Shown piece by piece: positions 1 through 49,300 of a stretch of DNA of 64,000 bases (within the stretch, counting starts at the first letter, position 1; each line of letters opens with the position of its first letter). The stretch lies in IMG/VR virus record IMGVR_UViG_3300029787_000002, positions 105,643-169,642 of that record. One strand, written 5' to 3'. The stretch comes from a virus. The position numbers were made by a program, and so were the translations under genes. A model generated the notes under the pieces. That model saw only the letters and a list, made by a program, of their open reading frames with translations, did no database searches and was not told the DNA's origin.

Positions 1-1389
1 AACAATCCCATTCAGTATGCAGCATACTATGATGGAAGTATGCATCATGACGAGAATTTACAAATGAAACTTTCTTCTCAGGCAGGACAGACAGCAATCA
101 TTAGAGCACTAAGAGAACTTGAAGGTAGAGATAGTTTTAAAGGAACTGAGATGTACAAACACATGGGTGAAGGTGACGTCAAGTTCTCTAGAAGAGGAAA
201 CTTCTATCATTATTCAGAACAACGAGGAAAGAATGATCCTCCCCCAACATCTATTCCAAGGCATTATCTAAGGTTCATTCAAAATCAACAGGCAAGTCCC
301 GATCAACAAGAAAAAACTGGTCCCACTTCAATAATGGGAAAGTTTGGCAATGCTCTCTCTGGTCTTACTGGATTTCTTAGTGATGTATTCTTAGGAGGTC
401 CTGCACAAGCAGCACCAAATCCTCCAAGAAAGTTGGAGAGAGAATCAAATAATGGAGCAAGAGGAGTTTCAATTGCTGATGGTGATATGGGAGAGAAAGT
501 ATTCCCACTTCCCAAAGGTAGATTCCAAGCAACAGCAAGACAGGTATTTGGTGCAGGAAGAGGAGGAAGAAGTCACGCAGGTGTAGACTTAACTGAAGCA
601 CCACCTTGGGGATCAGATCCAAAGATTCCTGTTGTTGCTGCTATTGCAGGATCAGTTTTAAGCGAAAGATATAAGGCAGGTCAGACATACTATTCAGGTA
701 TGATGGTTCGAGGTCAAGATGGTCATGACCAACGATACTTGCACATGGAACCTAGTGTCAAACCTGGGCAAGAAGTGAATGCAGGTGATCAGATCGGTAG
801 ACTTTATGACGATGGTGATAACAGTCACCTACACTTTGAGGTATACAAGAATGGTAAAGGTGGACCTTTAAATCCATCTTTGATCTATCCTAATATGTTT
901 AAGGCAGGAAATAAAGGTGGACTGCAGATGACAAATCCTACTGCATTCACTTCTTCCAGTTTAACAACTCCTGGTCAGAACAAACCTTCTCAATCTGACA
1001 TTCAGTCGATGGGTGATCCAAGAGAGAGTGATACAACCTTCTCTGGTATGGATGGTATTCCTAGTCAGTTCTCTGCTGCTAAAAAACAAAGAGAAGCATT
1101 AATCAATGCAACTCAAGAAAGAGATAATGCACGAGAGAATTTTAAAACAGGCGTAGCAAATGCTGTGATGACTGCACAAGCACGAGTAAATGAGTCTAAC
1201 CAACAGAGTGCTAGTGCCATTCAACAAGCAAACTCAGGTTTAAAAAGTGCAGGATCAGGTGGAGAAAGAAAACCCAGAGTGAGTGGTGGTCTTCCTGGGA
1301 TTGGTAGTGTAAACATCAATGGTGTGATGAAAACTACAGCATATGCGTTGAACTCCAACAAGAATTTTATGCGAGGTATTCTTAGATGA
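1..1389 (+). CDS. M23-family peptidase, baseplate/tail cell-wall hydrolase (5' truncated)
   Basis: The frame is open to the first base of the window, so the N-terminus is missing and the ATG at 40 is probably internal. The visible 462 residues hold a LytM/M23 zinc endopeptidase domain at about nt 490-890. It has the metal-binding HAGVD (H-x3-D) near nt 574 and HLHFE (H-x-H) near nt 826, with the usual family elements around them. M23 enzymes cut peptidoglycan cross-links. Downstream is a low-complexity Gln/Ser/Asn-rich tail. The gene overlaps the next one by 4 nt (ATGA) and lies upstream of hub genes, so a tail-tip role in wall penetration during infection is likely. The M23 assignment is confident; the virion location is inferred from context. 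Confidence 0.8.
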   Translation, partial: NNPIQYAAYYDGSMHHDENLQMKLSSQAGQTAIIRALRELEGRDSFKGTEMYKHMGEGDVKFSRRGNFYHYSEQRGKNDPPPTSIPRHYLRFIQNQQASPDQQEKTGPTSIMGKFGNALSGLTGFLSDVFLGGPAQAAPNPPRKLERESNNGARGVSIADGDMGEKVFPLPKGRFQATARQVFGAGRGGRSHAGVDLTEAPPWGSDPKIPVVAAIAGSVLSERYKAGQTYYSGMMVRGQDGHDQRYLHMEPSVKPGQEVNAGDQIGRLYDDGDNSHLHFEVYKNGKGGPLNPSLIYPNMFKAGNKGGLQMTNPTAFTSSSLTTPGQNKPSQSDIQSMGDPRESDTTFSGMDGIPSQFSAAKKQREALINATQERDNARENFKTGVANAVMTAQARVNESNQQSASAIQQANSGLKSAGSGGERKPRVSGGLPGIGSVNINGVMKTTAYALNSNKNFMRGILR

Positions 1390-27339: not shown

Positions 27340-27962
27340 GTATTGAAATGTTCTGCCCTCAGTGGTATTACGTTGAGAGCGTACCTGTTGAGTATCAGGC
27401 ACAAATTGAAAAATTATTTGAACCGCAGATCAGAGACGAGAGTCTATATGTGCAATCCCCTTGGGATTGTAACTGTTTATCTACATTTCAATCTAAAAGT
27501 AATTTAGATCTACCTTGGAATGACTGGTTAGAATGTTGTAGGTCAACACTTGACAAGATGATTGACGCATTGCAACCTAAAATTGATATCGAAGTAGTAC
27601 CTCAGGAAGCATGGGCAAATCTATATACTAAAGGTATGCATCAAGAGTACCATACACATAGTTTACCAAACTGTAATCTAAGCATGTGTTACTTGTATGA
27701 TGTACCCGAAGGTGACCCATTGTTTCGGTTCGTTTATAATGGACATGATGACTATAAAAGGTCAGGTCTAACCGAAGCATTCGATATGCCCATACAAACG
27801 AGAATCGTCCCTAAGGCAACTAAAGGAGACCTTATTATATTTCCCTCGCATTATCCTCACTTCGTTGCTCCTAACCCCTCTGATGCCCCTCGCATCACAT
27901 TCTCAGGGAACCTGTACGTTGTGCCAAACAACAAAGCGTCACAGGACACTCCCACACCATAA
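27336..27962 (+). CDS. Putative 2OG-Fe(II) oxygenase (Oxy_5-like)
   Basis: This 208-aa protein has the HxH-type pattern of the phage 2OG-Fe(II)_Oxy_5 family: Trp93-Ala-Asn, H106-T-H108-S, SMCYLYDVP, then KGDLIIFPSHYPHFVAP with H175, and R186 in RITFSGNL. These features form the metal and 2OG site on a double-stranded beta-helix. It is unrelated in detail to the two oxygenases at 16536 and 24263. The target is unknown. Confidence 0.7.
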   Translation: MSIEMFCPQWYYVESVPVEYQAQIEKLFEPQIRDESLYVQSPWDCNCLSTFQSKSNLDLPWNDWLECCRSTLDKMIDALQPKIDIEVVPQEAWANLYTKGMHQEYHTHSLPNCNLSMCYLYDVPEGDPLFRFVYNGHDDYKRSGLTEAFDMPIQTRIVPKATKGDLIIFPSHYPHFVAPNPSDAPRITFSGNLYVVPNNKASQDTPTP

Positions 27963-27972
27963 AATTCATGCT

Positions 27973-28173
27973 ATGATTACTCCTGTAAACAAACCTCAGA
28001 CTTCTATCGGCATCATTAAGTCGATCAAGAAGGCACTCAAAGAGGCAGACAATGACCCCTTTCTTTATTCAATCGATGAAATCAAAACTCTCAAACGCAA
28101 AAAGCGTGAATGGCAAGACCTTGAACGCAGGGCGAACATCGAAGAACGCAATGGGTTCGGTCAGTACCTATAA
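27973..28173 (+). CDS. Hypothetical basic protein
   Basis: This protein has 66 aa from ATG 27973 (MITPVNKPQTSIGIIK...). An in-frame ATG at 27865 lies inside the oxygenase gene and is rejected. It is strongly charged and helical (LKRKKREWQDLERRANIEER). The function is unknown. Confidence 0.55.
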   Translation: MITPVNKPQTSIGIIKSIKKALKEADNDPFLYSIDEIKTLKRKKREWQDLERRANIEERNGFGQYL

Positions 28174-28886: not shown

Positions 28887-29054
28887 ATGCACAACATCTT
28901 TACACAGAAACAAACTCCAGAGTTTACAAACTTTAACGCTGAAACATACGAAAACGAGTTATGGAATGACTACTTTGAATGTTTAGTCGATTCTGAAAAC
29001 TTAAGACACAACCAATCAGCAAAGAAAATCTGTAGATATCTAGTTCCAGAATAG
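28887..29054 (+). CDS. Hypothetical protein
   Basis: This protein has 55 aa (MHNIFTQKQTPEFTNFNAET...) with a GTGAGG ribosome site before ATG 28887. It is acidic and helical, with two Cys. Its TAG stop is the first triplet of a degenerate copy of the regional dyad element. Confidence 0.55.
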   Translation: MHNIFTQKQTPEFTNFNAETYENELWNDYFECLVDSENLRHNQSAKKICRYLVPE

Positions 29055-29109
29055 GACACTCTACATACTGTCACAAACCCCCACACAGGGGGTTTTTTTG
29101 TGCTATACT
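29052..29109 (+). promoter_or_regulatory. Dyad-type promoter, copy A (degenerate)
   Basis: The 24-bp element 29052-29075 (TAGGACACTC-N4-TACTGTCACA) is followed after 28 nt by TATACT (29104-29109). The right arm matches the family well; the left arm is eroded. It should drive the helicase gene at 29131. Confidence 0.55.
29075..29099 (+). terminator. Intrinsic terminator between dyad and -10
   Basis: An AAACCCCC stem pairs with GGGGGTTT around a 5-nt loop and runs into seven T. It ends transcripts from upstream genes just before the helicase promoter -10. Confidence 0.8.
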
Positions 29110-29130
29110 AAGGGTACTGACGAACGAAGT

Positions 29131-30360
29131 ATGAATTTGAGACCCCATCAGCAAAGAGCATTCGATAGGATGCAGCAGTATGATATCGGTAAGATCATCG
29201 TACCTACTGGTGGCGGTAAGACTTATATTATGATCGCTGACTTGATCGAGCAGATGCAGCAGAGATATGACACTACAACTGTAGTTGTTGCACCTCGTAT
29301 CCTATTGGCAAACCAATTGTGTGCAGAGTTCACAGAGTTTGTAAGCGATGCTGATATTATGCACGTCCACTCAGGTGAGACTCACTATACATCTAGCACT
29401 AAACCTGAAGATGTCAAACTATTTGTAAGCACACATACTAAGCATAAGATCATCTTTACTACATATCATTCATTACATCGTGTAGTTGATTCAGATATCA
29501 CTATTGATACTGTATACTATGATGAAGCACACAATGGAACAGGCAAAAAGTTCTTTGAAGGTGTGAATGGTATGGTTCACAATGCTACTCGTAGGTTCGC
29601 ATTCACCGCAACACCTCGCATGGGACGTGGTGTCTCAGCAAATCGTGGCATGAACAACTCACAAGTGTGGGGACAGACTCTAGAGAACGTACCCGCAACT
29701 GAATTGATCGAAGCAGGTGCTATTCTTCCACCTCAGATCGTACCTTTTGAGACTGATAGAGTCAGAGAAAAGCATAACGCACATGATGTTGACGCTGAGA
29801 ACCTCAAGGACATTCTAAGTTCACTTGATAGTCAGCAGTCAGCAAAAGTATTAGTGGCAGCACCTAGTTCAAGGATCCTTGGGTTCATGTTGGGTAGAAC
29901 TGACATCCTAGAGTATCTCAAAGAGAATGGATATGATGTACTACACATCACATCTAAGTTCGGTGCTATCATCAATGGCAAGAAAGTAGGACGTGAAGAG
30001 TTCTTCAATACTCTTACAGAGTGGGGCAACGATGACAATCGTAGGTTCGTTGTTTTCCACTATTCTATCCTATCTGAAGGAATCAACGTCAATGGTCTCA
30101 CTCATACTGTATTGTTGAGGAATCTACCTATCATCGAAATGGCACAAACTATCGGACGTGTTATCAGAGTGCATAAGGATGACCGCAAAGCAGTTGAATC
30201 TGGTAGTATACCCTCTGGTGCATTCCACCTCTACAAGAAGGGTGCAGGTTATGTAACTGTACCAACTGGATTTAAGTATGGTGATCGCATTGCAAAGAGA
30301 CTTCAGAGCGTGGTAGAGTACATTTTTGTGGAAGGCATCCCACCTCTTTCATATTGCTGA
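29131..30360 (+). CDS. SF2 DEAH-type DNA/RNA helicase
   Basis: This protein has 409 aa from ATG 29131; an in-frame TTG at 29098 is upstream of the promoter -10 and is rejected. Motifs: Walker A PTGGGKT (25-31), DEAH (131-134), TATPR (159-163) and motif VI QTIGRVIRVHKD (about 339-350). This is the type-III-restriction/UvsW-like helicase group used in phage recombination and repair. It is shorter than T4 UvsW (about 500 aa). It is the only large enzyme in the small-gene region and is driven by dyad promoter copy A. Confidence 0.85.
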   Translation: MNLRPHQQRAFDRMQQYDIGKIIVPTGGGKTYIMIADLIEQMQQRYDTTTVVVAPRILLANQLCAEFTEFVSDADIMHVHSGETHYTSSTKPEDVKLFVSTHTKHKIIFTTYHSLHRVVDSDITIDTVYYDEAHNGTGKKFFEGVNGMVHNATRRFAFTATPRMGRGVSANRGMNNSQVWGQTLENVPATELIEAGAILPPQIVPFETDRVREKHNAHDVDAENLKDILSSLDSQQSAKVLVAAPSSRILGFMLGRTDILEYLKENGYDVLHITSKFGAIINGKKVGREEFFNTLTEWGNDDNRRFVVFHYSILSEGINVNGLTHTVLLRNLPIIEMAQTIGRVIRVHKDDRKAVESGSIPSGAFHLYKKGAGYVTVPTGFKYGDRIAKRLQSVVEYIFVEGIPPLSYC

Positions 30361-30362
30361 TG

Positions 30363-30421
30363 TGTGACAGTTGACAAAGTGTCACAACATCCCACACAAC
30401 ACCCCAAATCTTTGTTATATT
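30363..30421 (+). promoter_or_regulatory. Dyad-type promoter, copy B
   Basis: TGTGACAGTT-N4-AAGTGTCACA (30363-30386), a 29-nt spacer, and -10 TATATT (30416-30421). The outer 7 bp of each arm are perfect inverted repeats. The expected start site is about 30428, exactly the 5' end of the structured RNA. Confidence 0.7.
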
Positions 30422-30427
30422 AATAAT

Positions 30428-30582
30428 GTCGAAACAAACCAACCTAAGACTTTCAAGGTTGCGGACACCAGAGGTCTAATGGATTTAATCCTGATCAACG
30501 AAGGTTAATTTATTAATCTGTCTTGGCGATTCCTTTGCATACGCATTTAAATCGAACTTAAGCAGTTGAGTTTTGTTTCGAC
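30428..30582 (+). ncRNA. Predicted structured RNA or leader (about 155 nt)
   Basis: No gene lies between 30361 and 30603. An 11-bp perfect stem (GTCGAAACAAA, 30428-30438, with TTTGTTTCGAC, 30572-30582) closes a multi-branch fold. Inner helices: CAACCT/AGGTTG (30440-30461), GGAT/ATCC (30481-30491), AGGTTAA/TTAATCT (30502-30519), CGATT/AATCG (30527-30554) and ACTTAA/TTGAGT with a GCAG loop (30556-30571). Helices abut one another, and the loop of the first can pair with AGGTCT (30472-30477) as a pseudoknot. The 5' end coincides with the predicted start site of promoter copy B. It could be a free ncRNA or a regulatory leader of the gene at 30604. No terminator is seen at its 3' end, and no known family was recognised. 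Confidence 0.6.
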
Positions 30583-30603
30583 CCATCATAATCACAGGTC
30601 ACT

Positions 30604-30801
30604 ATGGTCACACTACAACTGACAAAAGATCAATTTTTTGAACTGTATGATGCAGTCAAAGATCTACCAGACATCTACAAATCCGAAGCACTTGCGGGTG
30701 AGTATGAATTGGATGCAGCACACTATGATCTTTTTGATGCAGTCAAAGTAATGGATAAAATTGCTCTTAATCCATCGGTCGAAATCTTTCTAGGAAAATA
30801 A
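30604..30801 (+). CDS. Hypothetical acidic protein
   Basis: This 65-aa acidic helical protein (MVTLQLTKDQFFELYDAVKD...) contains two similar segments (YDAVKDL and FDAVKVM). It lies 21 nt after the structured RNA and may be controlled by it. The function is unknown. Confidence 0.55.
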   Translation: MVTLQLTKDQFFELYDAVKDLPDIYKSEALAGEYELDAAHYDLFDAVKVMDKIALNPSVEIFLGK

Positions 30802-30843
30802 CCCTATGTCTAATAAATATTACAACAGTCAGGGTTTACTACG

Positions 30844-31071
30844 ATGAGTAAGATCAAAGATGTCACCAACTCACCAGAAGACTGGGAGGATTTTTGGTAC
30901 AATTCAGAGGATGGATTTTACTTTGATTCTGTTACTGGTTTATCCTACCAGATCGAAGGATGGGATGGGCAAGAGGACAGTGCATCAGAGTATCAAAAAA
31001 AGATCTATCTGGAATCTACCATCGCTGAATTGGAAAGTCAAGCAGATGACCCCATGGGAATCGGCAAGTGA
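30844..31071 (+). CDS. Hypothetical acidic protein
   Basis: This 75-aa acidic, Trp-rich protein (MSKIKDVTNSPEDWEDFWYN...) has an AATAAATA motif 24 nt upstream (30812-30819) that might act as a late promoter. Its stop is immediately followed by dyad copy C. The function is unknown. Confidence 0.55.
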   Translation: MSKIKDVTNSPEDWEDFWYNSEDGFYFDSVTGLSYQIEGWDGQEDSASEYQKKIYLESTIAELESQADDPMGIGK

Positions 31072-31130
31072 TGTGACAGTTGGCAAAGTGACCACTAAAC
31101 CCCCACAGAGGGGTTTTTCTATGGCATACT
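31072..31130 (+). promoter_or_regulatory. Dyad-type promoter, copy C
   Basis: TGTGACAGTT-N4-AAGTGACCAC (31072-31095; right arm degenerate), 29 nt, then CATACT (31125-31130). A leader with AAACAAAC follows. It should drive 31156-31833. Confidence 0.65.
31097..31118 (+). terminator. Intrinsic terminator in the copy C spacer
   Basis: AAACCCC pairs with GGGGTTT around a short loop and runs into five T, inside the 29-nt spacer of the dyad promoter. Confidence 0.7.
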
Positions 31131-31155
31131 AGTAATAGTTAAACAAACAACACAC

Positions 31156-31359
31156 ATGGACATCGCTCTCGAACGTGAATATGCTATCGACAACATGGCA
31201 GACTCACTCTTCGATCAAATGAAAGATTTGATCAAGCAAGATCAGCATAATGATGCTATTGCAGTTTGTGAAGAGTGGTTGGTAGATGGCAAAGACCCTC
31301 AGGATGGCGATTATAAGTTTATCTTCCTTAAGAACTTCACACTAAACGAGGACAACTAA
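31156..31359 (+). CDS. Hypothetical acidic protein
   Basis: This 67-aa helical protein (MDIALEREYAIDNMADSLFD...) has a leader (AAACAAACAACACACATG) with no clear Shine-Dalgarno site. It ends in NEDN, whose codons contain the GAGG ribosome site of the next gene. The function is unknown. Confidence 0.6.
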   Translation: MDIALEREYAIDNMADSLFDQMKDLIKQDQHNDAIAVCEEWLVDGKDPQDGDYKFIFLKNFTLNEDN

Positions 31360-31360
31360 A

Positions 31361-31606
31361 ATGAAACAATCCGAAAAGGACTTCCAAAACTGGATCGAAT
31401 CATGTCCCGACCTACTCAGGTTTAGACTTGAGTATGTTGACGTGAGAGCAGATGTTGAAAACGTCATCACAACTTACGAATACGAATTTGCGGATGACGA
31501 GACTAGAAAAGAGGTGACTGAAGCAGTCATCGAAGATTTCTATGATCAAGATTGGTCAGACCATAACGAATTCATTGCACACCTATTAGACAGGAGACTC
31601 TCATGA
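31361..31606 (+). CDS. Hypothetical acidic protein
   Basis: This 81-aa acidic, helical protein (MKQSEKDFQNWIESCPDLLR...) uses the GAGG site embedded in the previous gene. It overlaps the next gene by 4 nt. No family is recognised. Confidence 0.6.
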   Translation: MKQSEKDFQNWIESCPDLLRFRLEYVDVRADVENVITTYEYEFADDETRKEVTEAVIEDFYDQDWSDHNEFIAHLLDRRLS

Positions 31607-31833
31607 AAACTATCGATGTTCCTTTTACCTATGATCAATTAAGTGACGTGATTTACTATCTTGAGTGGAAGATCTCAGAGATCAACGAAGCAGGATGTGA
31701 TCTCGAATTTCCAGAGATAGAGAACACCTTACAACAGTTACAGGAGACTCAGGACAGACTCAGAGTGAGAACTGACGAAGATTATCAACTCATGATGAAC
31801 AATAGAGCAAAACAACCAACAGCAGAGTGGTAG
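31603..31833 (+). CDS. Hypothetical acidic protein
   Basis: This 76-aa helical protein (MKTIDVPFTYDQLSDVIYYL...), with a Gln/Glu-rich probable coiled coil, has its start coupled by ATGA. Its stop abuts dyad copy D directly. The function is unknown. Confidence 0.6.
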   Translation: MKTIDVPFTYDQLSDVIYYLEWKISEINEAGCDLEFPEIENTLQQLQETQDRLRVRTDEDYQLMMNNRAKQPTAEW

Positions 31834-31892
31834 TGTGCCAGTTCAATTAGTGTCACATGACCTATTGTAATAGGTCTCTGATGCTTTATAAT
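31834..31892 (+). promoter_or_regulatory. Dyad-type promoter, copy D
   Basis: TGTGCCAGTT-N4-TAGTGTCACA (31834-31857), 29 nt, TATAAT (31887-31892). The spacer holds a perfect GACCTAT/ATAGGTC hairpin (31859-31876) without a T-run. Confidence 0.75.
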
Positions 31893-31917
31893 ATTAGTAT
31901 AGCAACGGAGATCACAC

Positions 31918-32223
31918 ATGCACAACTTCAAACAATTTCTTGACTATTGTGAATCATTCTACAGTCCAGAGCATCCTGACTGTTTATATCCTATCGATGG
32001 ATTGACTAGGGGTGAGTTAGCACTTGCAATTCTCAACTATCTTGACTTATGTGCAGAGGATGAGAATGTTAACTGGGGTGATGGTGATTCACTAGACAGA
32101 GAGAGAGTCAGAGATTTTGTTATTGAGCGTAGAGCAATTGATTACAACAGAATTCAGAAAATTTTAGCAATTGAAGATGCTAAGAACCCAGTAAGAGGTC
32201 TCAACTTCACAGGAGGACAGTAA
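31918..32223 (+). CDS. Hypothetical acidic protein
   Basis: This 101-aa protein (MHNFKQFLDYCESFYSPEHP...) has GGAG at 31907 as its ribosome site. It is acidic and helical with three Cys. It is first in a four-gene operon behind dyad copy D. The function is unknown. Confidence 0.6.
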   Translation: MHNFKQFLDYCESFYSPEHPDCLYPIDGLTRGELALAILNYLDLCAEDENVNWGDGDSLDRERVRDFVIERRAIDYNRIQKILAIEDAKNPVRGLNFTGGQ

Positions 32224-32224
32224 G

Positions 32225-32332
32225 ATGCAGAAAATTATCATCGAAGACATTACTGACTACAAAAAGTTACAGGAATGGATTGACAGTCTTGACCCTAGAC
32301 TTAAAGAACAATACGAAAAGGAGGACAACTAA
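32225..32332 (+). CDS. Tiny hypothetical protein
   Basis: This 35-aa helical product (MQKIIIEDITDYKKLQEW...) starts 1 nt after the previous stop. Its last codons (KEDN) contain the strong AGGAGG ribosome site of the next gene, so part of its role may be translational coupling. Confidence 0.5.
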   Translation: MQKIIIEDITDYKKLQEWIDSLDPRLKEQYEKEDN

Positions 32333-32333
32333 A

Positions 32334-32501
32334 ATGAATCAATTTAAAGTCGAATGTTCAGAGGTTAATTACTTCACAGTATTAGTTGAAGCAGAAACCG
32401 AAGAGGAAGCAAGGAAACTTGCTAACGCAAACATTAACTCATTTGAAGTCGAAGATGAGTATGTTTCAGAGTGGACTATTGAAAGTGTGGAGGAACTGTA
32501 A
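32334..32501 (+). CDS. Hypothetical protein, DpnD/PcfM-like fold
   Basis: This protein has 55 aa from ATG 32334 (MNQFKVECSEVNYF...), with AGGAGG well placed upstream. The pattern FKVE...VLVEAETEEEARKLA resembles DpnD/PcfM-like small domains found in mobile elements. A longer reading from 32280 overlaps the previous gene and lacks a ribosome site. The function is unknown. Confidence 0.6.
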   Translation: MNQFKVECSEVNYFTVLVEAETEEEARKLANANINSFEVEDEYVSEWTIESVEEL

Positions 32502-32788
32502 TGAGTTACGACAATTCAAAAGAGGTAACAATCAGGTTATCTAAAAGGGAACTCGGAATTCTCAACATGTATACCTCTGGTTTATTTGCTCGCATCGATA
32601 GCGATGTAACAGAGTGGGGTAGTTCATGCACTGGTCATGATACAATCGAACATGACTATTTTGGTAAGGATGCAATTCTCGGATTAAGAAAAGAAGTCAA
32701 GAATGCAGTAGACTCATTCTATACTCATGAGAATGATCTAAGACTACCAAAAGATCACAACGGAAATCCAAACCCTTGTGCCAGATGA
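32501..32788 (+). CDS. Hypothetical protein
   Basis: This 95-aa protein (MSYDNSKEVTIRLSKRELGI...) starts with a strand-helix resembling small DNA-associated proteins but has no defined motif. It overlaps the previous stop by 1 nt. Its last codons (PCAR, stop) lie inside dyad copy E. Confidence 0.6.
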   Translation: MSYDNSKEVTIRLSKRELGILNMYTSGLFARIDSDVTEWGSSCTGHDTIEHDYFGKDAILGLRKEVKNAVDSFYTHENDLRLPKDHNGNPNPCAR

Positions 32789-32835
32789 TAAAGTGGCACA
32801 AAACCCCTCGCAATGGGGTGACCTCTTGCTATAAT
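32777..32835 (+). promoter_or_regulatory. Dyad-type promoter, copy E
   Basis: TGTGCCAGAT-N4-AAGTGGCACA (32777-32800), 29 nt containing an ACCCC/GGGGT stem, then TATAAT (32830-32835). The first ATG (32842) sits at the expected +1. Confidence 0.75.
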
Positions 32836-32862
32836 AAAGACATGAACACACAAAGGAGAATT

Positions 32863-33060
32863 ATGGAAAAAGGTTTAAACATCGAAGTCACATCTTCACA
32901 GTATGAGTATCTCTATGAAGTACTCATGGAAGCATACTCAAACGATGTTGCAGAGCAAAAAGACTGGGATGTCCAGACTTTCGATAACTTACTTGACAAT
33001 GTAATGAATGCGAAGTCAACTTACTTGTCAGATTCAACTCGTGGGATTCTAAAACGATAA
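32863..33060 (+). CDS. Hypothetical protein
   Basis: This protein has 65 aa from ATG 32863 (MEKGLNIEVTSSQYEYLYEV...), chosen because AAAGGAG (32852-32858) precedes it. ATG 32842 is in frame and would give a leaderless mRNA with seven extra residues. It is acidic and helical, with unknown function. Confidence 0.6.
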   Translation: MEKGLNIEVTSSQYEYLYEVLMEAYSNDVAEQKDWDVQTFDNLLDNVMNAKSTYLSDSTRGILKR

Positions 33061-33129
33061 TTCTTACATTCTTAATTCCAGTGGGTGACTACCTACACCC
33101 TATAAACATTTAATTTTATTCCTTTTATT

Positions 33130-33291
33130 ATGAGTCATTCAGTCAACACAGAAATCCTTGAAAACCTTTACGATGAGATCTTAAATGAACTCAGTTTCAA
33201 GAATATCCAACTCGGTATTATGCTACCGATGCATAGACTTGAAGAGATCGCAGCAGATCACGCACAAAAACGTTTTGAAGAGTTAGGTTAA
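33130..33291 (+). CDS. Hypothetical protein
   Basis: This 53-aa helical protein (MSHSVNTEILENLYDEILNE...) lies in an A/T-rich stretch. A GGGTG/CACCC hairpin and TATAAA (33080-33110) lie upstream and might form a weak promoter. The function is unknown. Confidence 0.5.
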   Translation: MSHSVNTEILENLYDEILNELSFKNIQLGIMLPMHRLEEIAADHAQKRFEELG

Positions 33292-33345
33292 CTCTTTAAT
33301 AACGATTCTTCTAATTAAAACTTCACTTCAAACCTTTAATAAGAC

Positions 33346-33519
33346 ATGAACACAATTTTCGCAGCAATCACCGAGGGAGTTCCATTTTATGACTTCCCTA
33401 AAAGTCCAATTTTGGTGCTTGGGTTTTTTGGCATTCTCGTGGCAATGGTCACAGTATACACAGTTAATAAAGCATACTTCAATTCACCTTTTAACCCTGA
33501 CAATCAAAAGAGATCATGA
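33346..33519 (+). CDS. Small single-pass membrane protein
   Basis: This 57-aa protein has one membrane helix (PILVLGFFGILVAMVTVYTV) in the middle, a short N-terminal part and a polar tail (FNPDNQKRS). It overlaps the next gene by 4 nt. It could act at the host membrane, for example in superinfection exclusion, but nothing specific shows this. Confidence 0.55.
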   Translation: MNTIFAAITEGVPFYDFPKSPILVLGFFGILVAMVTVYTVNKAYFNSPFNPDNQKRS

Positions 33520-33686
33520 TCACACAAAAGAAACCAACATTCGCTGAACTTGAGAAAAGATGGCGAGAGCATAATCATGAGTATAGCGAAGAGTTTACTC
33601 AAAACATCTACGATGCTCACATTGCAATTGCTGAACAGTTCCCATTCTTATATGACAGTTACGGATTCCCAAAGGAGGACTACTAA
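33516..33686 (+). CDS. Hypothetical protein
   Basis: This 56-aa charged helical protein (MITQKKPTFAELEKRWREHN...) has an ATGA-coupled start. Its C-terminal PKEDY codons carry the GGAGG site for the next gene, the same junction design as at 31346 and 32321. Confidence 0.55.
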   Translation: MITQKKPTFAELEKRWREHNHEYSEEFTQNIYDAHIAIAEQFPFLYDSYGFPKEDY

Positions 33687-33827
33687 ATGAAATTTACAGA
33701 AGACCAAATTGAATACCTTAAAGAGTGTGTTTCATTCCATTATGAAATGAACTCTGACATCAAAGAACATATAATTGACATTAACGCACAATGCAGCAAA
33801 AAACTATGGGAGTGTGCCAGTGAATAA
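33687..33827 (+). CDS. Hypothetical protein
   Basis: This is a 46-aa product (MKFTEDQIEYLKECVSFHYE...), helical with three Cys. It starts directly after the previous stop. The codons for its last residues (CASE, stop) are dyad copy F. Confidence 0.5.
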   Translation: MKFTEDQIEYLKECVSFHYEMNSDIKEHIIDINAQCSKKLWECASE

Positions 33828-33872
33828 AGTGTCACAACATGGGTTTCTTTTAATCTCATTATTGTTTATAAT
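33813..33872 (+). promoter_or_regulatory. Dyad-type promoter, copy F
   Basis: TGTGCCAGTG-N4-AAGTGTCACA (33813-33836), 30 nt, TATAAT (33867-33872), followed by an AAACAAACAAAG leader. It drives 33899-34518. Confidence 0.75.
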
Positions 33873-33898
33873 AATAGTATAAACAAACAAAGAACATT

Positions 33899-34141
33899 AT
33901 GAACGCAACTTCAGTATACACAGAACCAGTAAACAGAATCAAGCAAAGAATTCTGTTTGATGACAATCTACAGAATATGGCATGTTGCTGTTGTGACTGG
34001 GCAGAATTCGTTGTTGAGATCAACGAGTGGGGAATCGAGAGACTTGGAGGTGTCTGGTTCGATGATCTTTCAGAATTCGATATACAGCACTTAGACATCT
34101 TCATTAAGGCAGAAAACGGTTACATCAGAGAGGAGGTTTAA
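33899..34141 (+). CDS. Hypothetical protein with a CCCC cluster
   Basis: This is an 80-aa protein (MNATSVYTEPVNRIKQRILF...) with four consecutive cysteines (MACCCCDW), which could bind metal. The rest is acidic. It ends in REEV over an AGGAGG ribosome site for the next gene. The function is unknown. Confidence 0.6.
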   Translation: MNATSVYTEPVNRIKQRILFDDNLQNMACCCCDWAEFVVEINEWGIERLGGVWFDDLSEFDIQHLDIFIKAENGYIREEV

Positions 34142-34144
34142 ATC

Positions 34145-34360
34145 ATGTGTAACAATCAACTTAAAAAGTGGGAAACAGGAACAGAGGGAGAAACATGGGA
34201 TTTTGGTTATGTTGACAATCCCAAGCAATTTATCGAAGAGGTTTTTGAAATCGCATTTGGGGATGATGCAATCAACCGTAACTATTCGATGGGCGAAGTT
34301 TTAGATAGACTCATGGAATTTAGTGATGATGCATTACGTTATAATGGAGAGTTAGACTAA
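34145..34360 (+). CDS. Hypothetical acidic protein
   Basis: This is a 71-aa protein (MCNNQLKKWETGTEGETWDF...). It has an acidic helical second half with repeated MEFSDDAL-type turns. It overlaps the next start by 1 nt. No family is recognised. Confidence 0.6.
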   Translation: MCNNQLKKWETGTEGETWDFGYVDNPKQFIEEVFEIAFGDDAINRNYSMGEVLDRLMEFSDDALRYNGELD

Positions 34361-34518
34361 TGACTAATGTTCCAATCAGTTTTGACGAAGCATATCAGAT
34401 GACGAGATTATACGATACTCTCAGAGATATGGATTTTGAACTTACTGACAATCAAGTGGCAGTATTTGATAAATTACTTGATATTCGTAAATATGTCAAG
34501 TCAGAGGGTGCCAGTTAA
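34360..34518 (+). CDS. Hypothetical protein
   Basis: This 52-aa helical protein (MTNVPISFDEAYQMTRLYDT...) ends in EGAS and a stop encoded within dyad copy G. The function is unknown. Confidence 0.5.
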   Translation: MTNVPISFDEAYQMTRLYDTLRDMDFELTDNQVAVFDKLLDIRKYVKSEGAS

Positions 34519-34565
34519 TTATGTGTCACACTCTACCTCGCATCGGTGGTTCAAACCGCTATAAT
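34507..34565 (+). promoter_or_regulatory. Dyad-type promoter, copy G
   Basis: GGTGCCAGTT-N4-ATGTGTCACA (34507-34530), 29 nt with a CGGT/ACCG hairpin, TATAAT (34560-34565). From the -10 into the first codons it is identical to copy E (TATAATAAAGACATGAACA). Confidence 0.75.
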
Positions 34566-34571
34566 AAAGAC

Positions 34572-34658
34572 ATGAACAGAGCGTTGCTCACTTTATCAAT
34601 TGCTGAGGGATACCCTCGCTTTGTTCAAACAATTTTCACTTTACTTAAAATCAAATGA
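34572..34658 (+). CDS. Tiny hypothetical (leader-like) peptide
   Basis: This is a 28-aa peptide (MNRALLTLSIAEGYPRFV...) whose ATG is at the predicted transcription start, so the mRNA would be leaderless. It overlaps the next gene by 4 nt. It could be a coupling leader peptide. Confidence 0.4.
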   Translation: MNRALLTLSIAEGYPRFVQTIFTLLKIK

Positions 34659-34834
34659 GAATGACTAAAGTTCAAGTAGTTTCACAATTTCGAGAAATGC
34701 TTCGTGAGTCAGGTGCAAACCTTAGGGGCGATTCAATTGCTAAACGTGAAGCATTTAACGATTATGTTGACATGCTTAACAAAGATGGCGATGTAACCGA
34801 CTGGCAAGCATACAACTGGAGCAACCCATTCTAA
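34655..34834 (+). CDS. Hypothetical protein
   Basis: This is a 59-aa protein (MRMTKVQVVSQFREMLRESG...), helical with a Trp/Asn-rich end (WQAYNWSNPF). It has ATGA overlaps on both sides. The function is unknown. Confidence 0.55.
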   Translation: MRMTKVQVVSQFREMLRESGANLRGDSIAKREAFNDYVDMLNKDGDVTDWQAYNWSNPF

Positions 34835-34956
34835 TGACAATCACAGAATATAAAGAACTATGCAAACAAAATAAATTGCATATCGGTGAGGAAGTCCCTG
34901 AAGACAATGACACCAAGAACAACGAAGACGAAACAAACACTTATCAAGGAGCATAA
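34834..34956 (+). CDS. Tiny acidic hypothetical protein
   Basis: This is a 40-aa product (MTITEYKELCKQNKLHIGEE...) with an acidic, probably disordered tail. Its last codons contain AAGGAG (34946-34951), the ribosome site of the following gene. Confidence 0.45.
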   Translation: MTITEYKELCKQNKLHIGEEVPEDNDTKNNEDETNTYQGA

Positions 34957-34960
34957 ACAC

Positions 34961-35167
34961 ATGATCATCGAAAATTTCAGTAGAGAGCAATTTATTTTAC
35001 TCTCAAAGGCACTTGATAATTATCGTATTTACATGACATCAGAAGAAGAAACTTTATCTGAAGAAATTTTAGATAATGTCTTTTATCCATCTATTGGAAT
35101 GAGTAAACCGAGAAATACCGCAAAGGTTACAAGTATAGCGGAAGCGATCCGCAAGGGACATAAGTAA
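34961..35167 (+). CDS. Hypothetical protein
   Basis: This protein has 68 aa from ATG 34961 (MIIENFSREQFILLSKALDN...), with AAGGAG upstream. A longer reading from 34886 overlaps the previous gene. It is helical, with a basic C-terminus (IRKGHK). The function is unknown. Confidence 0.55.
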   Translation: MIIENFSREQFILLSKALDNYRIYMTSEEETLSEEILDNVFYPSIGMSKPRNTAKVTSIAEAIRKGHK

Positions 35168-35186
35168 CTATACTAACCTAAACAAA

Positions 35187-35399
35187 ATGAGTTGGAATCT
35201 TATCCCTTGGAGCGAACAAACAACGAACGTAATGGCAACAATGACCTATGAAGACTTAATCACTAAGTTACAACAATTGAACCCTAATCAGTTGAAGAAA
35301 AATGTTGCTATCTATGATGAACATTTAAATGAGAAGGTATTAGTTCACAATGAATTAATCTTCTTTGATAACAATCAGTTCCCCTATTTAAAGATTTAA
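35187..35399 (+). CDS. Hypothetical protein
   Basis: This protein has 70 aa (MSWNLIPWSEQTTNVMATMT...); ATG 35232 (MATMTYEDL) is another plausible start. The part from YEDLITKLQQLNPNQLKKNV onward looks like a small alpha/beta domain. TATACT at 35169 might be a -10. The function is unknown. Confidence 0.55.
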   Translation: MSWNLIPWSEQTTNVMATMTYEDLITKLQQLNPNQLKKNVAIYDEHLNEKVLVHNELIFFDNNQFPYLKI

Positions 35400-35645
35400 A
35401 TGAACTTCCAAAAAGGTGACTATTACTCACTAAATGACTTAAATGGATGGGTTAATTTCATCGATAGTAGTTATATCACTCTTGTTATAAATGAGTGGAC
35501 TAAATGTGATGAATTAGCAAAAGGTAGTCGTAGTAATGTACATCAAGTGCAGTTACTAGTATACCCTCACCAATGGAAAGATATGGTGAAAAGTAATCGA
35601 AATCGCTTTGAAGATGGTCTACTAAATAACACTCATGAGAAGTAA
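35400..35645 (+). CDS. Hypothetical protein
   Basis: This is an 81-aa protein (MNFQKGDYYSLNDLNGWVNF...). Its start follows the previous stop with no gap. It is a mixed alpha/beta soluble product. It overlaps the following small gene by 11 nt. Confidence 0.55.
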   Translation: MNFQKGDYYSLNDLNGWVNFIDSSYITLVINEWTKCDELAKGSRSNVHQVQLLVYPHQWKDMVKSNRNRFEDGLLNNTHEK

Positions 35646-35772
35646 TCCGCAACCTATTCTTAATAGCGAGTTTAACACATTTTGGACTATATGTAAAGAA
35701 CTCGTGGTAAGTACTTGGGAGTTGTATAGAACAACTGTAAGTAACAAAGTAACAAGAATAAGGGAAGATTAA
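35635..35772 (+). CDS. Hypothetical protein
   Basis: This 45-aa basic helical product (MRSNPQPILNSEFNTFWTIC...) overlaps the previous gene by 11 nt and ends 3 nt before the next possible gene. The function is unknown. Confidence 0.45.
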   Translation: MRSNPQPILNSEFNTFWTICKELVVSTWELYRTTVSNKVTRIRED

Positions 35773-35775
35773 CGA

Positions 35776-35958
35776 ATGTTGTTAAATATTAAAATAAATC
35801 TATTGTTGTTAACAATACCGAGATTAATTGCTCAGGTAATTGTACTCTTAGCACGCAACTTACCGATTGTCAATGATAGTCAGCAAACACAGATTTTCTT
35901 GACAGATTATAAACAATTATGGTATAATAACTCTGTAAGGGTTCAGAAATTCCTCTAA
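35776..35958 (+). CDS. Possible small membrane protein
   Basis: This 60-aa frame has a hydrophobic N-terminus (MLLNIKINLLLLTIPRLIAQ). It is overlapped by a sigma70-type promoter at 35899-35928, so its second half may be regulatory DNA rather than protein. Support is weak. Confidence 0.35.
   Translation: MLLNIKINLLLLTIPRLIAQVIVLLARNLPIVNDSQQTQIFLTDYKQLWYNNSVRVQKFL
35899..35928 (+). promoter_or_regulatory. Sigma70-type promoter
   Basis: TTGACA (35899-35904), 18 nt, TATAAT (35923-35928). The start site would be near 35935, 30 nt before ATG 35965. Confidence 0.65.
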
Positions 35959-35964
35959 GTATCA

Positions 35965-36165
35965 ATGCTAAGTAACATCAAAGCACCTCAGAAGTACATG
36001 GAGTTGTTAACACTTTGGGAGGAAGGATTATGCCCACTAAATGAAGGTATTGCTTTGTTTCAGTTCTTGTTAGATACTGACCAATGTTGGGAGGATGAGA
36101 TATTATCTAATACAGCAAGTTATATGGTTATGGAAGGATTTTGTTATTACGTTTACACCCCTTAA
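35965..36165 (+). CDS. Hypothetical protein
   Basis: This 66-aa acidic protein (MLSNIKAPQKYMELLTLWEE...), rich in Leu and aromatic residues with three Cys, is first behind the promoter at 35899. The pattern GIALFQFLLDTD is helical. The function is unknown. Confidence 0.55.
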   Translation: MLSNIKAPQKYMELLTLWEEGLCPLNEGIALFQFLLDTDQCWEDEILSNTASYMVMEGFCYYVYTP

Positions 36166-36174
36166 TTAACAACA

Positions 36175-36384
36175 ATGACCCAAAAGATGCTCTATAAAGT
36201 TTATAACAATGAATGTGAACTTATAGGGGAGTTTGTATCAATTTACGATATGGAACATTTTATGGACGATGTTAGAAACTCACGGGGAGAGAGGTATAAA
36301 GAATTGCCCAGATTATCGGTATTTGATTATATTAAATCGATCGGTTACTATATGGAAATTAATTGCCCTGTGACAGTTAAATAA
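36175..36384 (+). CDS. Hypothetical protein
   Basis: This is a 69-aa protein (MTQKMLYKVYNNECELIGEF...). Its N-terminal half is strand-rich, with an unclear fold. Its last residues (PVTVK, stop) are encoded inside dyad copy H. Confidence 0.55.
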   Translation: MTQKMLYKVYNNECELIGEFVSIYDMEHFMDDVRNSRGERYKELPRLSVFDYIKSIGYYMEINCPVTVK

Positions 36385-36427
36385 GTGGCACAATAGGGGT
36401 TGTAAGGGGTTGCCCACCTGCTATAAT
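36369..36427 (+). promoter_or_regulatory. Dyad-type promoter, copy H
   Basis: TGTGACAGTT-N4-AAGTGGCACA (36369-36392), 29 nt, TATAAT (36422-36427), then a CCAAACAAAGGG leader that also holds the ribosome site of 36453. Confidence 0.75.
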
Positions 36428-36452: not shown

Positions 36453-36773
36453 ATGAGAAAAATTGAAAGACAAATGAACAACGCAATCAGAACAGGCAAA
36501 AACTTCTCATCATCCAATACAATGGTTAAGCAAGGATGGGAGGGAGAAGCAGATGTTTATTTACATGGAAATCACATTGCAACTGTGAAGAACAATTCAA
36601 TCGTCATTAAAGATGGGGGTTGGCAGTCTAATACAACGAAATCTAGACTTAATGCACTACTAGACGAATTTTCTTATGGTATGAGAGTATTTCAGAAAAA
36701 CTTTGAGTGGTTCGTATCTTATAAGAACGTTAAAGAGGATTTCGTAAGCGGTATGGAGTTAGCAATCGACTAG
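36453..36773 (+). CDS. Hypothetical basic protein
   Basis: This is a 106-aa protein (MRKIERQMNNAIRTGKNFSS...). It has a basic N-terminal helix, then a beta-rich part (VYLHGNHIATVKNNSIVIKD), then a helix. The fold suggests a small nucleic-acid-binding or inhibitor protein, but no family is recognised. It ends the dyad-controlled region; its stop abuts TTGACA of another promoter. Confidence 0.6.
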   Translation: MRKIERQMNNAIRTGKNFSSSNTMVKQGWEGEADVYLHGNHIATVKNNSIVIKDGGWQSNTTKSRLNALLDEFSYGMRVFQKNFEWFVSYKNVKEDFVSGMELAID

Positions 36774-43381: not shown

Positions 43382-46300
43382 ATGAACATTAATAAGGTTT
43401 CCCAGTCGATTGAGTCTCAATCACCAGACTTTATTGGATCAGAATATCCTCTGTTTAATAAGTTTCTTGAGTATTATTACAAATCTCAAGAGAAGACTGG
43501 TTTAGGGCAAAATATACTTAATAACTTCCTCCAGTATCTTGATATCGACAAACTCGATATCGGTATCCTAGATGGTGCGACAACGCTTGTAGAAGCGATT
43601 ACAGATAGTTCAGATAAGATCGTTGTTGAGAGTATCAACCCTTTCCTAGAAACGAATGGGTCTATTCTAGTTGGCGATGAAGTCATATATTATGAAGGTG
43701 TAGATAAATCTCCAGAGATCTCACTTTCTCCAGGTATTTCATATGAACAGGTAAAACTTAAGTGGACTACTCTTGCTAGTCTTATCAACAGTTTTGATGG
43801 TACCACTACAGCATTTGCAATAACATCTCAAGACAGTCCAATTGCTCCCCCTTCAGCACAGCATTTGGTTGTTTCTTTGTATGGTAATATTTTAGTTCCA
43901 AATATTGATTATACAGTTAGCGGATCAAATATCGTATTCACTACTGCACCTAGAACCAAAATTCCTGCTGATGATGCAGGTTCAACTTACATCTTCTATC
44001 TTAGCGGTTTTGTTGAGAACACCATTTATGGATTAGACAATCTTTCTGGTGCTTTTGGTGATGGTAAGAAGCAATTCAGTCTAACTCGTAATGGAGTTAA
44101 GTATGAACCAGAAGTTGAAGAGTATTTGAATGTCATTTATGATAATCGTCTCTTAGTTCCTAAAGTTGATTACTTTATTGATGAAGATCAATTTGTATTT
44201 AAAGTAGCACCCCTTAACGGTCGTTTCTTATCAATCCATGCAATTGAGGCACCTATTCCGTCTTTCGGTAGTGGTGCAGTTGGTTTTTCTCGTATTAATG
44301 ATAATGGACTTCTAACAAGTGTCTCATCTAGTGCTATTGGTACTGGATATCGCTTTGAATATCCTCCTCAAGTTAGCATTGACTCTGAGCAAGGTTCAGG
44401 TGCTGCTGCAACTGCCCTTGTTAACGGTTTGAAGTCAATCACCCTACTAGAGGGTGGAAGGGGTTACAGCACGACTAACCCTCCTGTTGTGCAGGTTCAA
44501 TCTCCTACTAAAACTGGTTCTAGTCAAGCAACTATTAGTGCAACGGTTACTGACGGTTCAGTTACTGCACTGAGCATTACTAACTCTGGTTCTGGTTATA
44601 CCTTTACTCCTAGAATTACTTTTGTTCAACCTGGTGGGGCAAAACTGGGTACTCCAGTTATTACTAATGAACAGGTAACATCAATCCCTGTTACTGACGG
44701 AGGTTTTGGTTATACTACTGCTCCAACTGTTTATATTGATGAATCAACTGGTTCAAACCCAATTAAGGCAGCATTAAGAGCAAATCTTACTGAAGGTAAG
44801 GTTACTAGCATTTCAATCTTAAATGCAGGACAAGGATATACAACTGTTCCTAGAGTTGCGATTGTAGACCCTGTAGGTGCACAAGTATTACAAACTGTTG
44901 TTGATGGTGATGGTAGAGTCATCAGAATCGAATTACTTAATGGTGGTGGCGGATATGACGATGTTCCTTCTGTTTATATTGTAGATAATAGAACTAACGG
45001 TGGTACTGGCGCAACTGCGGTTGCTTCTATTTTCAACGGTCGAATTACTGATCTTAATATTACTAATTTTGGTAGCGGTTACTCTGCTGCTAATCCTCCT
45101 GAGATTGTAATCCAAGCACCTCCTCAGGCAAAAGCATCTGTTGAAATTGGTCTTAATGAAGTCACAGGTTTCGTAGTTACTGAGTCAGGTAAAGGATACA
45201 ACAAGGCAGCATTTACTGGATGTGCGAGAGCAGCATCTGGTATTACTAAGTACACTGAAACAGGTAATGCAGTATTCAGTAATAACACTACAGCAGCATC
45301 TGCAGCGGTTGGTTCAAGCGTTAAGTGTTTGGATGCACTATTTGTTAAGAGACTACTAGACAAGTATACAGAACAGTTCTTACCTGATGTTCCAGAACTT
45401 GACTACTCTAAGATTGATGTTCGTACATCGATCAAAACTATTAAAGATTTTTATTCATCTAAAGGTACTTCGTTCAGTATTGCTTATCTGTTCAAGTTAC
45501 TTTACGGTGAAACTGTTACGGTCACATATCCAAAAGACCAAATCATCAAACCCTCTGCAGCAACTTGGTCTATCGACACAATTTTGCGTGCAACCCTAGT
45601 AAGTGGTAATGCTGAGAATATTAGAGATGGTTTGTTAACTCAAGAAGCAGATATTGCAGATCCTAATGTAACTGCTGCAAGTGCCTTAGTTGAAAACTAT
45701 ATTTCAATCAAAACCTCTGATGTAGAGATCTTTGAACTTGTTCTTTCAGAAGAAACTATTGTTGGGACGTTTACCGTACCATATAAGACAAAACTTGCTG
45801 AACCTCTCAATCAAACTGATTCGATCATTACGGTTGACTCTACAATTGGTTGGCCAGAACGAAATGGTGAGTTTGTCATCGGTGGTGGTACAACAACTGA
45901 ACTTGTACAGTATAAAGAGAAATCACTCAACCAGTTCATCGAATGTACTCGTTCTGCAAACGGTATTGTAGAAGACTGGGATTCTGCAACTCAAGTTGCT
46001 TCTAACTTCACGGTATATGTGAATAGAGGAACTACTCAAGAAGTAGTGTTAAATGTTGTTGGTATTGTTGATGCACAGCAAACTGTTCTTACTGACACTG
46101 GTTCATACTACTTACCTGGCGATAAACTCGCTGTGTCTAAGTTAGGTGGAACTAGTATTGATCCTCATTTAACTACATGGTTATATAACGTCAAAAAACT
46201 TATCAATGTCTCTACAGTTGTCTTTGGAGGTGTTAATAATAGGTTTGCAACTATTACTTGTTCAAACAATCACGGTTTATTGGTTGGTGATCAGGTTACA

Positions 46301-49300
46301 GTTTATGGTGCAAACCCAATCATCTATAATGGAACATTCCTTGTAACATCTAGGGATAGTGCAACAGTATTCCAGTATCAGTTACCCCAACCCGCAACTG
46401 TGGTACCACAGGGTAACATTTTAGTATCTGTTGACTTGAACAAAGGTAAGTCTACAAGTACTGCTGTATTGAATGCTATTGGTCCTTATACGACTAACGT
46501 TCAAAACTCATTCTTCAATACAAACTATGCATACCTAGCATCTACAGGTATTCCAAACTATAATATTGGTCCTTTCCCAGGATCTGCTCTGCTTCCAGGA
46601 AACCAACGTAAGTTGAATCGTTTCCCGATTACTTCTACAACAATTTCTACAAAGAATACTGTTTCTCCAGGTCCTATCGGAACTTGGGTTAATGGCGTCT
46701 CTATCTGGTCTTATAAGTCAACTCTCAAGAAAACCTTTGGTGCTGTAACTAGCGTTGCTATTACAAATGCAGGTAAAGAATATGATGCTGCCTCTCCACC
46801 TGTATTAACTATCAGTGGTGGCGGAGGAACTGGTGCAACTGCTGCAGTTGTTGTTAACGGTTCTGTTAATGAAATTACTGTATCTACAGGGGGTTCTGGG
46901 TTTACTTCTTCTCCTCTAGTCTCTATCGTTGGTGGAGGCGGTTCTGGAGCGTCTGCAACTGCTATTATTACAAAAGGGGTTGTCTCTAGAATTCTAATCA
47001 ACTCAGGTGGTAGTGGATACACCTCACAACCTTCTATTACTGTTGTTGGTGGCGGTGGTACTGGTGCTGCAGCAACTGCATCTGTTCGTGGTCCTATTCA
47101 GTCTGTTTCCGTTGGATCAGGTGGTAGTTCTTATACTTCTACTCCTACGGTATCGTTAAGTTCTGGTAGTGGTGCTGTTGCACAGGCAATTGTACAGAAT
47201 GGTCGTATTATTTCGATCGCTATTATTTCTGCAGGTTCTGGATATACAACTGCTCCTGAAATTACTATTCAGGGTGAAGGTTTTGGTGCTGTTGCTAGAG
47301 CATCTATTGATACTGATGGTGAAAATGCAGGTAGAGTTACAAGCATTTCTATTATTAACCGAGGTATTGGATATCTTCAAGGAACAACTATCATTAACTT
47401 GAACTCTGTTGGTTCTGAAGCAACTTTTACTGCAAACGTATTTGAATGGACTTATAACTTACAATCAACTACTACATTTGATACTGCTAAGGGTTCTGTC
47501 TTTGAAGGATTTAATAATCAGTATGGTGGTGAGTATGCTCACTTATCAAACCCTCAAACACTAAGATATATTCTTGGTGACAACTTATTTGAAAATGCAT
47601 CAGGCGTAATCAAAGAACAGGAAGATGGTTTACTACACTCTCCTATTATTGGTTGGGCATTTGATGGTAACCCAATTTACGGTCCTTATGGTTACTCTGA
47701 TCCTACTGATCAGTCATCTGCGATCCAAAAACTTAATACTTCATATAGATTAAAGACAAATCTTGTTTATAATGTAGATTCTAACCCAAATCCTGTTAGA
47801 ACAGCAGGTCCTTTACTATCTGCTGAGGCAGCAGGTAAATTTGTTGAGGACTATGAGTATGTGTTCGGTCTTGGTGCATTAGATCAGTATAACGGTAGAT
47901 TCTGTAAGACTCCTGAGTATCCCGAAGGTAGATATTCTTACTTCGTTACTATTGATGCAACTGACGATGGTAATCCATTATTCCCTTATGTTATGGGTCC
48001 TAGTTTCAACTCTGTTGTTGATTCTTGGAACTTGAATGCTAGTGCACAACAGCAAAATATTCCTACTGGTGTTGTTAGATATCGTGATCCTTATGAGAAT
48101 GTTGATATTGACGTTGAGAGGGCACCCAATGCTTCTACAAACGCTCTAACACTAGAGAATGGAGATGTATTACTATTTGATATAGAAGACGAAGATAGAA
48201 GTGGTGTTATTGAAGCGGATGAGACTGCTGATCCCGATCAGGTCTTTGAAGAGTCACCATTACAGTTATTTGATTACTTCCCCAAAGTCAAGTTTGACTC
48301 TAAGGTTGATATTGAAGTTGAAACAACTACTAAGTTTGAAGATGCTTCTGTAACTGGATTTACAGTTGAAAACCCAGGTATATCTTATCAGGTTAATGAT
48401 AGACTAATCTTTGACAATACTGATACCGATGGTAGTGGTGTTTCTGCTCGTATTTCTAGAATTAAAGGTGAAGCGGTTGAAGCATATACATTTGAAAATG
48501 TAAGTGGTAATAACTTCGGTGTTCTTACTACAGTCAATCCTCACAACTTACAAGCAGGTGATAGTGTCTTTATTGACTACACTCCTGTCATGGACAGCAC
48601 TAATAAGACATTTGTTGTTCGTCAATTTAAAGGTATTGAAGAGATTGTAGTTAATCAAACTGGATCTGGTTATAATACTGATATTCCTCCTACTATCATT
48701 ATCGATGGTAATGGAACTGGTGGTAGACTTGAAGCAGTTGTAACTTCTGTTGGTTCTATTGAAAATGTCAATATTATCAACTCTGGTTATGGATACACAA
48801 GTAATCCTAGAGTTATCCTTTCACATCCTCAAGTCTTCAAAAAAGCAGACTACTATGTTGCTAAGTTTACTAATAGAAACTATGTGAGGATCAGTGATGT
48901 ATACATTAATGATTCTAAAGAAACTTATATTTGCGGTAAAACTTATGATGCTGCATCTAATGATGTTGCATTCATTGCAAAACTCTCTGCTACAGGTGTT
49001 AAGGAATGGGAAGCATCCTTAGAACTTCCAGGTGGTCAACAAGACTCTGAATTCCTCAAGTTGTATGTTGATGGTAAGAGTATCTGGGTTGTTGGTCAAA
49101 ATAGTCCAAATAGTGTTATTCTTTCCTCTTATAACCCTGATGTTATTCTTTGTAAGTATACTGAAGCAGCAAACGGACTAAGTGCAGCATTAACCTTCCA
49201 AAAAGGTTATGCAGGTATCTCTGGTTCTACTCGTGGTGACTTTATCACTGCTATTAAGAAATACTCTGATACTAGATTCATTATTGGAGGATATACCAAT

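Follow-up and report, generated by a model that had tools for sequence, protein, structure and literature searches.

A conserved promoter class, in which a 24-bp dyad stands at a fixed distance upstream of a -10 box, is strongly supported in the DNA analysed here, a stretch of 64,000 nucleotides (the window) taken from a virus record of 172,907 bp, in which it occupies bases 105643-169642. The nearest relative of this record is Synechococcus phage metaG-MbCM1 (Galenevirus, Kyanoviridae), with 91% identity. The consensus of the promoter family reads TGTGMCASTT-N4-AASTGKCACA, followed by 28-30 nt and then TATAAT, each half-site of the dyad conforming to TGTG(A/C)CA(G/C)TT. A preliminary description of this sequence had listed eight such dyads, and all of them are present where it placed them, with gaps to the -10 of 28, 29, 29, 29, 29, 30, 29, and 29 nt. 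A search of the window with the consensus given there, allowing up to three mismatches, returned 11 matches versus 0.08 expected. Using a promoter weight matrix that combines dyad, gap, and -10, we found a ninth copy in the window at 27920, to which a site of P-RSM1 at 19504 (-) is homologous, and in the rest of the record clear copies at record positions 44421, 46682, and 67640 as well as a weak one at 95522. A chance origin of the family is ruled out by the number of matches in the window, together with the peak in gap lengths and the cross-genome scan with reversed controls presented below. The copies of the window, and the gene behind one of them to which we return, are the following:

27920..27977, + strand: ninth copy; dyad 27920-27943 (TGTGCCAAACAACAAAGCGTCACA), 28 nt, -10 TATGAT at 27972-27977; record position 133562
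29052..29109, + strand: degenerate copy; dyad 29052-29075, 28-nt spacer, -10 TATACT at 29104-29109
30363..30421, + strand: copy; dyad 30363-30386, 29 nt, -10 TATATT at 30416-30421
31072..31130, + strand: variant copy; dyad 31072-31095, terminator within the spacer, -10-like CATACT at 31125-31130
31834..31892, + strand: copy; dyad 31834-31857, hairpin in the 29-nt spacer, -10 TATAAT at 31887-31892
32777..32835, + strand: copy; dyad 32777-32800, hairpin in the 29-nt spacer, -10 TATAAT at 32830-32835
33813..33872, + strand: copy; dyad 33813-33836, 30 nt, -10 TATAAT at 33867-33872, AAACAAA leader
34507..34565, + strand: copy; dyad 34507-34530, 29 nt, -10 TATAAT at 34560-34565
36369..36427, + strand: best-scoring copy; dyad 36369-36392, 29 nt, weak -35 TTGTAA, -10 TATAAT at 36422-36427
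29131..30360, + strand: ResIII/DEAD-type helicase gene (Pfam PF04851, PF00270), behind the 29052 promoter

Two of these dyads are degenerate. The one at 29052 has a poor left half (TAGGACACTCTACATACTGTCACA), and its 28-nt spacer is filled by a complete intrinsic terminator. The one at 31072 (TGTGACAGTTGGCAAAGTGACCAC) has TGACCAC as its right half and CATACT at the -10, and right halves of this type (TGACCAC, TGTCCAC, or TGTCTAC) recur in Syn9, P-RSM1, and S-SSM4.

The spacing between dyad and -10 is the most telling property of the element. In a scan of IMG/VR in which the gap was free to take any length between 15 and 44 nt, 108 of the 129 distinct sites among the matches listed had one of 28-30 nt (9 sites at 28 nt, 73 at 29 nt, and 26 at 30 nt), out of 30 gaps allowed; these sites are related by descent and thus not independent, but the peak is nonetheless unmistakable. 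The letters of the spacer vary freely, in keeping with the earlier proposal that the distance is conserved rather than the sequence, and the random placement in other cyanophages that the preliminary description had named as the contrary outcome is excluded by the gap histogram and the cross-genome scan. The dyad ends immediately upstream of the -35 position, spanning approximately -65 to -42 with its centre near -53. The centres of TGTG and CACA lie 20 bp apart, in agreement with the two helical turns noted before, a remark that is otherwise purely descriptive. The statement that most copies lack a -35 box holds for the window (2-4 of 6 matches to TTGACA); family-wide, however, a degenerate -35 is enriched: at least four of six matches to TTGACA occur in 29% of the spacers versus 11% of shuffles, with TTGN accumulating 16-17 nt ahead of the -10. 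Hairpins are indeed frequent in the spacer, as had been noticed (mean minimum free energy of -4.97 versus -3.58 kcal/mol in shuffles); 18 of 175 spacers passed a test for a hairpin plus a T-run, most of them being clear intrinsic terminators, and in some helicase promoters (S-SSM5, S-CAM22, and IMG/VR contig L387) the TTGACA hexamer sits in the terminator loop. Around the transcript start the sequence is rich in A, its consensus being near ATAAACAAAC.

The symmetry of the dyad seems to be read in DNA. We rejected an RNA hairpin because positions 5 and 20 vary independently, with no covariation, and positions 8 and 17 favour non-pairing letters (on one strand, G/G in 68 and C/C in 26 cases versus 38 pairing combinations; p = 4e-5, with lineage effects possible, and again with sites that are related rather than independent). 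Owing to this preference at 8/17, a dyad usually joins a G-type half-site to a C-type one. CAGTT and CACTT half-sites are paired in this way across the family, CAGTT being more often the one distal to the -10. On the opposite strand, too, boxes resembling a -10 are most numerous 28-30 nt away from the dyad (13 versus 2.4 expected, with two divergent dyads counted from both sides), and some dyads thus serve divergent promoters; candidate pairs in isolate genomes are found at P-TIM40 52466, P-HM2 39292, and P-SSM2 66591. Three dyads lie within 280 bp in the P-SSM2 segment 66336-66614, where both strands carry promoters, forming a dense divergent control region.

The promoter class is restricted to the lineage of T4-like cyanophages (Kyanoviridae). 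Full promoters are present in 10 of the 11 Kyanoviridae genomes scanned, with zero matches in the reversed sequence of every genome, and the dyad recurs in P-SSM2, S-PM2, P-TIM40, P-HM2, S-SSM4, S-SSM5, P-RSM1, S-CAM22, Syn9, and the freshwater phage S-CRM01. More than 100 stretches in IMG/VR carry the promoter as well. The carriers are phages of Synechococcus, Prochlorococcus, and freshwater Synechococcus, and scans of the genomes of T4, P-SSP7, Syn5, PSS2, Ma-LMM01, S-TIM5, and the SAR11 phage HTVC008M yielded no full promoter, these non-carriers including cyanopodoviruses and one cyanosiphovirus.

The promoters of the window precede the helicase gene, blocks of small unknown genes, and lastly a Kyano_Gp96 gene (PF23790; open reading frame 36453-36773) behind the 36369 promoter. 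The helicase reading frame starts at ATG 29131, downstream of the 29052 promoter, and in several other cyanophages the helicase gene is preceded by a promoter of the same kind. In Syn9, sites (some of them variant) are found upstream of gp63, gp68, gp73, gp75, gp78, gp79, and gp90, and P-TIM40 has many in its small-gene region. Outside the small-gene region, sites stand in front of genes of the gp150/peptidase and gp183 families and of cobS, and the regulon is therefore dispersed. The earlier interpretation thus stands, with strong support, in positing a class of promoters whose dyad keeps a set distance from the -10, while its picture of the small-gene region run as one regulon was too narrow. 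The open reading frame at 30604 follows the 30363 promoter after a leader of about 180 nt (30422-30603), which could be a small non-coding RNA; an Rfam search of the region, leader included, gave no match. Further downstream, positions 43382-63202 are occupied by a single open reading frame of 6606 codons that adjoins baseplate genes and has conserved counterparts in every cyanophage compared as well as in HTVC008M.

We consider it likely that these elements are promoters of the host polymerase which a dimeric protein activates from a position near -53, and that they double as recombination joints. A host sigma70-type RNA polymerase would start at the good -10 with a weak or missing -35, and activation would come from a dimeric DNA-binding protein that occupies the 24-bp dyad, immediately in front of the -35 position; acting at the DNA level, the dyad would be able to serve promoters on either side. 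The spacer, constrained to 28-30 nt and free in sequence, would often accommodate the hairpin or terminator that belongs to the gene upstream; each unit would thereby close one operon and open the next, and the repeated units would serve as homologous joints for the gain and loss of gene blocks. A putative dimeric regulator fits the symmetry of the dyad at the DNA level as well as its divergent use. The sequence comparisons establish the element itself, its spacing, its restriction to one lineage, its use in both directions, the spacer hairpins, and one hybrid junction; a dimer as the binder, the identity of that binder, activation, and early timing we infer. The neighbourhood in the window is of early-gene type (small open reading frames and a helicase), which counts in favour of this proposal, and most copies are probably early promoters.

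Several observations weigh against it. The promoters of gp183 and cobS suggest that not all copies are early. S-RSM4 lacks a full promoter at the stringency of the scan, though it has six weak dyads, and S-SM2 shares the core genes yet carries just one weak site. The cyanophage core families that are missing from T4 and HTVC008M include, judged by eye, no obvious DNA-binding regulator (they comprise psbA, hli, mazG, a ThyX-like protein according to the same by-eye reading, and two small unknowns). Finally, the dyad is absent, at up to two mismatches, from 191 of the 201 genomes of the host family (Cyanobiaceae).

This last result also counts against the alternative that the binder is a co-opted host transcription factor of all picocyanobacteria, for which the phage sites would be near-perfect and the host sites weak. 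We regard this as a serious contender, if somewhat short of probable. Early promoters must function before phage proteins exist, the element tracks phages of Synechococcus, Prochlorococcus, and freshwater Synechococcus, and no cyanophage-specific core regulator gene was found: among genes present in the motif genomes and absent from S-SM2 no family occurs in all nine, and searches of the early open reading frames against Pfam and PHROGs detected no helix-turn-helix. Yet other phages of the same hosts lack the element, and the full promoter gave only 5 matches in the 201 Cyanobiaceae genomes versus 2 in controls at up to two mismatches, one of the five being exact. At three mismatches there were 29 matches versus about 14 in controls, resembling scattered coding sequence. 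Full promoters being essentially missing from these genomes, we rejected an ordinary host regulon, against which the near-absence of the site argues, whereas a host factor with weak native sites may be compatible with it. The exact host copy (G085:C248; L222:16101-17476) has the dyad, 29 nt, and TATAAT upstream of a DUF1281_C/Api92-like gene and is perhaps a mobile-element insertion. In Cyanobium CH-040 (G005:C1:112000-131999, L221), two dyads lie 14 kb apart, one adjoining an integrase gene and the other with TATAGT at 30 nt; they possibly belong to a mobile element using the same sign.

Multi-copy palindromic operators are typical of repressors, and several of the -10 boxes are near enough to consensus that they might work alone, so the dyad could be conceived as the operator of a phage repressor that closes the early genes later in infection. 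We find this unlikely, as the dyad keeps a strict distance and lies entirely on the upstream side of the -35 position, and the -35 is weak in most copies, both of which fit activation better than occlusion.

The helicase locus illustrates how the units may act as joints. In metaG-MbCM1 this locus consists of cassette 1, an extra gene (T4-GC_81), and cassette 2. The window has a single helicase cassette. In its upstream flank and dyad this agrees with cassette 1 (100% and 96%), in its spacer, -10, and downstream part with cassette 2 (88% and 93%). The helicase promoter of the window is thus a crossover hybrid of the two metaG-MbCM1 cassettes, with the crossover inside the promoter. Both alleles occur independently in IMG/VR, the allele of the window in contig L398 (99.9%) and that of metaG-MbCM1 in contigs L391 and L394 (99.3%); other contigs carry different inserts at this joint, in two further arrangements that measure approximately 530 and 900 bp from the end of the upstream homology to the helicase. 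In comparison with five relatives, alignments ended near dyads in 13 of 60 cases versus 3.7 for shifted positions, a figure that is weak alone since promoters sit at gene borders. The repeated units are thus probably homologous joints where gene blocks come and go. The hybrid junction between dyad and spacer, the alternative inserts, and the excess of alignment ends would also be expected if the unit were mainly a recombination cassette, of the kind described below for T4-like phages, with a minor role as promoter. This is very unlikely in our view, as recombination alone would not hold 29 +/- 1 nt to the -10 across a freely varying spacer. Least likely of all is that the dyad is an UP element of a novel type, contacted by RNA polymerase itself, for instance through phage-modified alpha C-terminal domains (these usually locate to about -65 to -42, and T4 modifies alpha), because the half-sites contain G+C and are strictly palindromic, unlike A-tract UP elements, and the divergent use of one dyad suits a separate dimer.

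More broadly, and only tentatively, we propose that an activator specific to this lineage, which the phage may bring along or recruit from the host, switches on a dispersed regulon through the dyad at its fixed 29 nt from the -10, and that the unit of terminator, dyad, and promoter is the joint at which small host-takeover genes are exchanged, so that newcomers would arrive already under early control. T4-like cyanophages are among the most abundant viruses of the ocean, and they lack the MotA/AsiA middle switch of T4. A precise promoter rule makes early genes and their boundaries callable in any cyanophage genome or metagenome, the putative activator becomes a direct target for pull-down, and cassette joints would offer a concrete mechanism for the rapid turnover of small takeover genes.

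How does this element compare with known systems? The Syn9 transcriptome study of Doron et al. 2016 (ISME J 10:1437) reportedly found a novel regulatory element that controls the early genes of Syn9 and P-TIM40; this early element is said to be conserved in T4-like cyanophages, with middle genes using host-like promoters. The copies of the window most likely represent that element. We judge it so because Syn9 and P-TIM40 both carry the dyad promoter throughout the relevant small-gene region, and the promoter is abundant among T4-like cyanophages. On this ground, the earlier view that the layout belongs to no named promoter class is probably wrong. Cyanophages have been described as having three temporal expression classes and no motA or asiA, in papers that do not print the motif letters (PMC5780444, PMC5082946; for the lack of motA and asiA, PMC5780444). 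The middle promoters of T4, composed of a MotA box and a -10, resemble the cyanophage promoters in their weak -35, good -10, and upstream activator box, but the MotA box (TGCTTtA) is placed 11-13 nt from the -10 (PMC1524935), whereas the cyanophage dyad is palindromic and lies 29 nt away. With no conserved box at 11-13 nt and the dyad at 28-30 nt, we rejected a MotA-dependent middle promoter.

Sites of CRP type (TGTGA-N6-TCACA, with centres at -41.5 or -61.5) share the TGTG...CACA palindrome upstream of sigma70 promoters. The cyanophage dyad differs in its form, TGTGNCA-N10-TGNCACA, and in its centre near -53, and the half-site separation of N10 instead of N6 led us to reject a CRP-type site. 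A closer likeness is found in the promoter early stem-loop (PeSL) cassettes of T4-like phages, reportedly described by Arbiol in 2010 and Comeau in 2014 as terminator-promoter units that occupy a variable region and take part in gene shuffling, and said to use T4-type early promoters. Like these, the cyanophage units combine a stem-loop or terminator with a promoter, as the hairpin-enriched spacers indicate, and behave as points of gene exchange, of which the helicase locus gives an example in its hybrid junction and its differing inserts. They differ in carrying the 24-bp dyad, which T4 lacks, and in a -35 that is weak instead of T4-like. For one region of S-PM2, exchange of the PeSL type has been judged unlikely (PMC4503421). 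Relative to these systems, the spacing law, the divergent use of single dyads, the superposition of terminator and promoter, and the hybrid resolved at sequence level may be new details.

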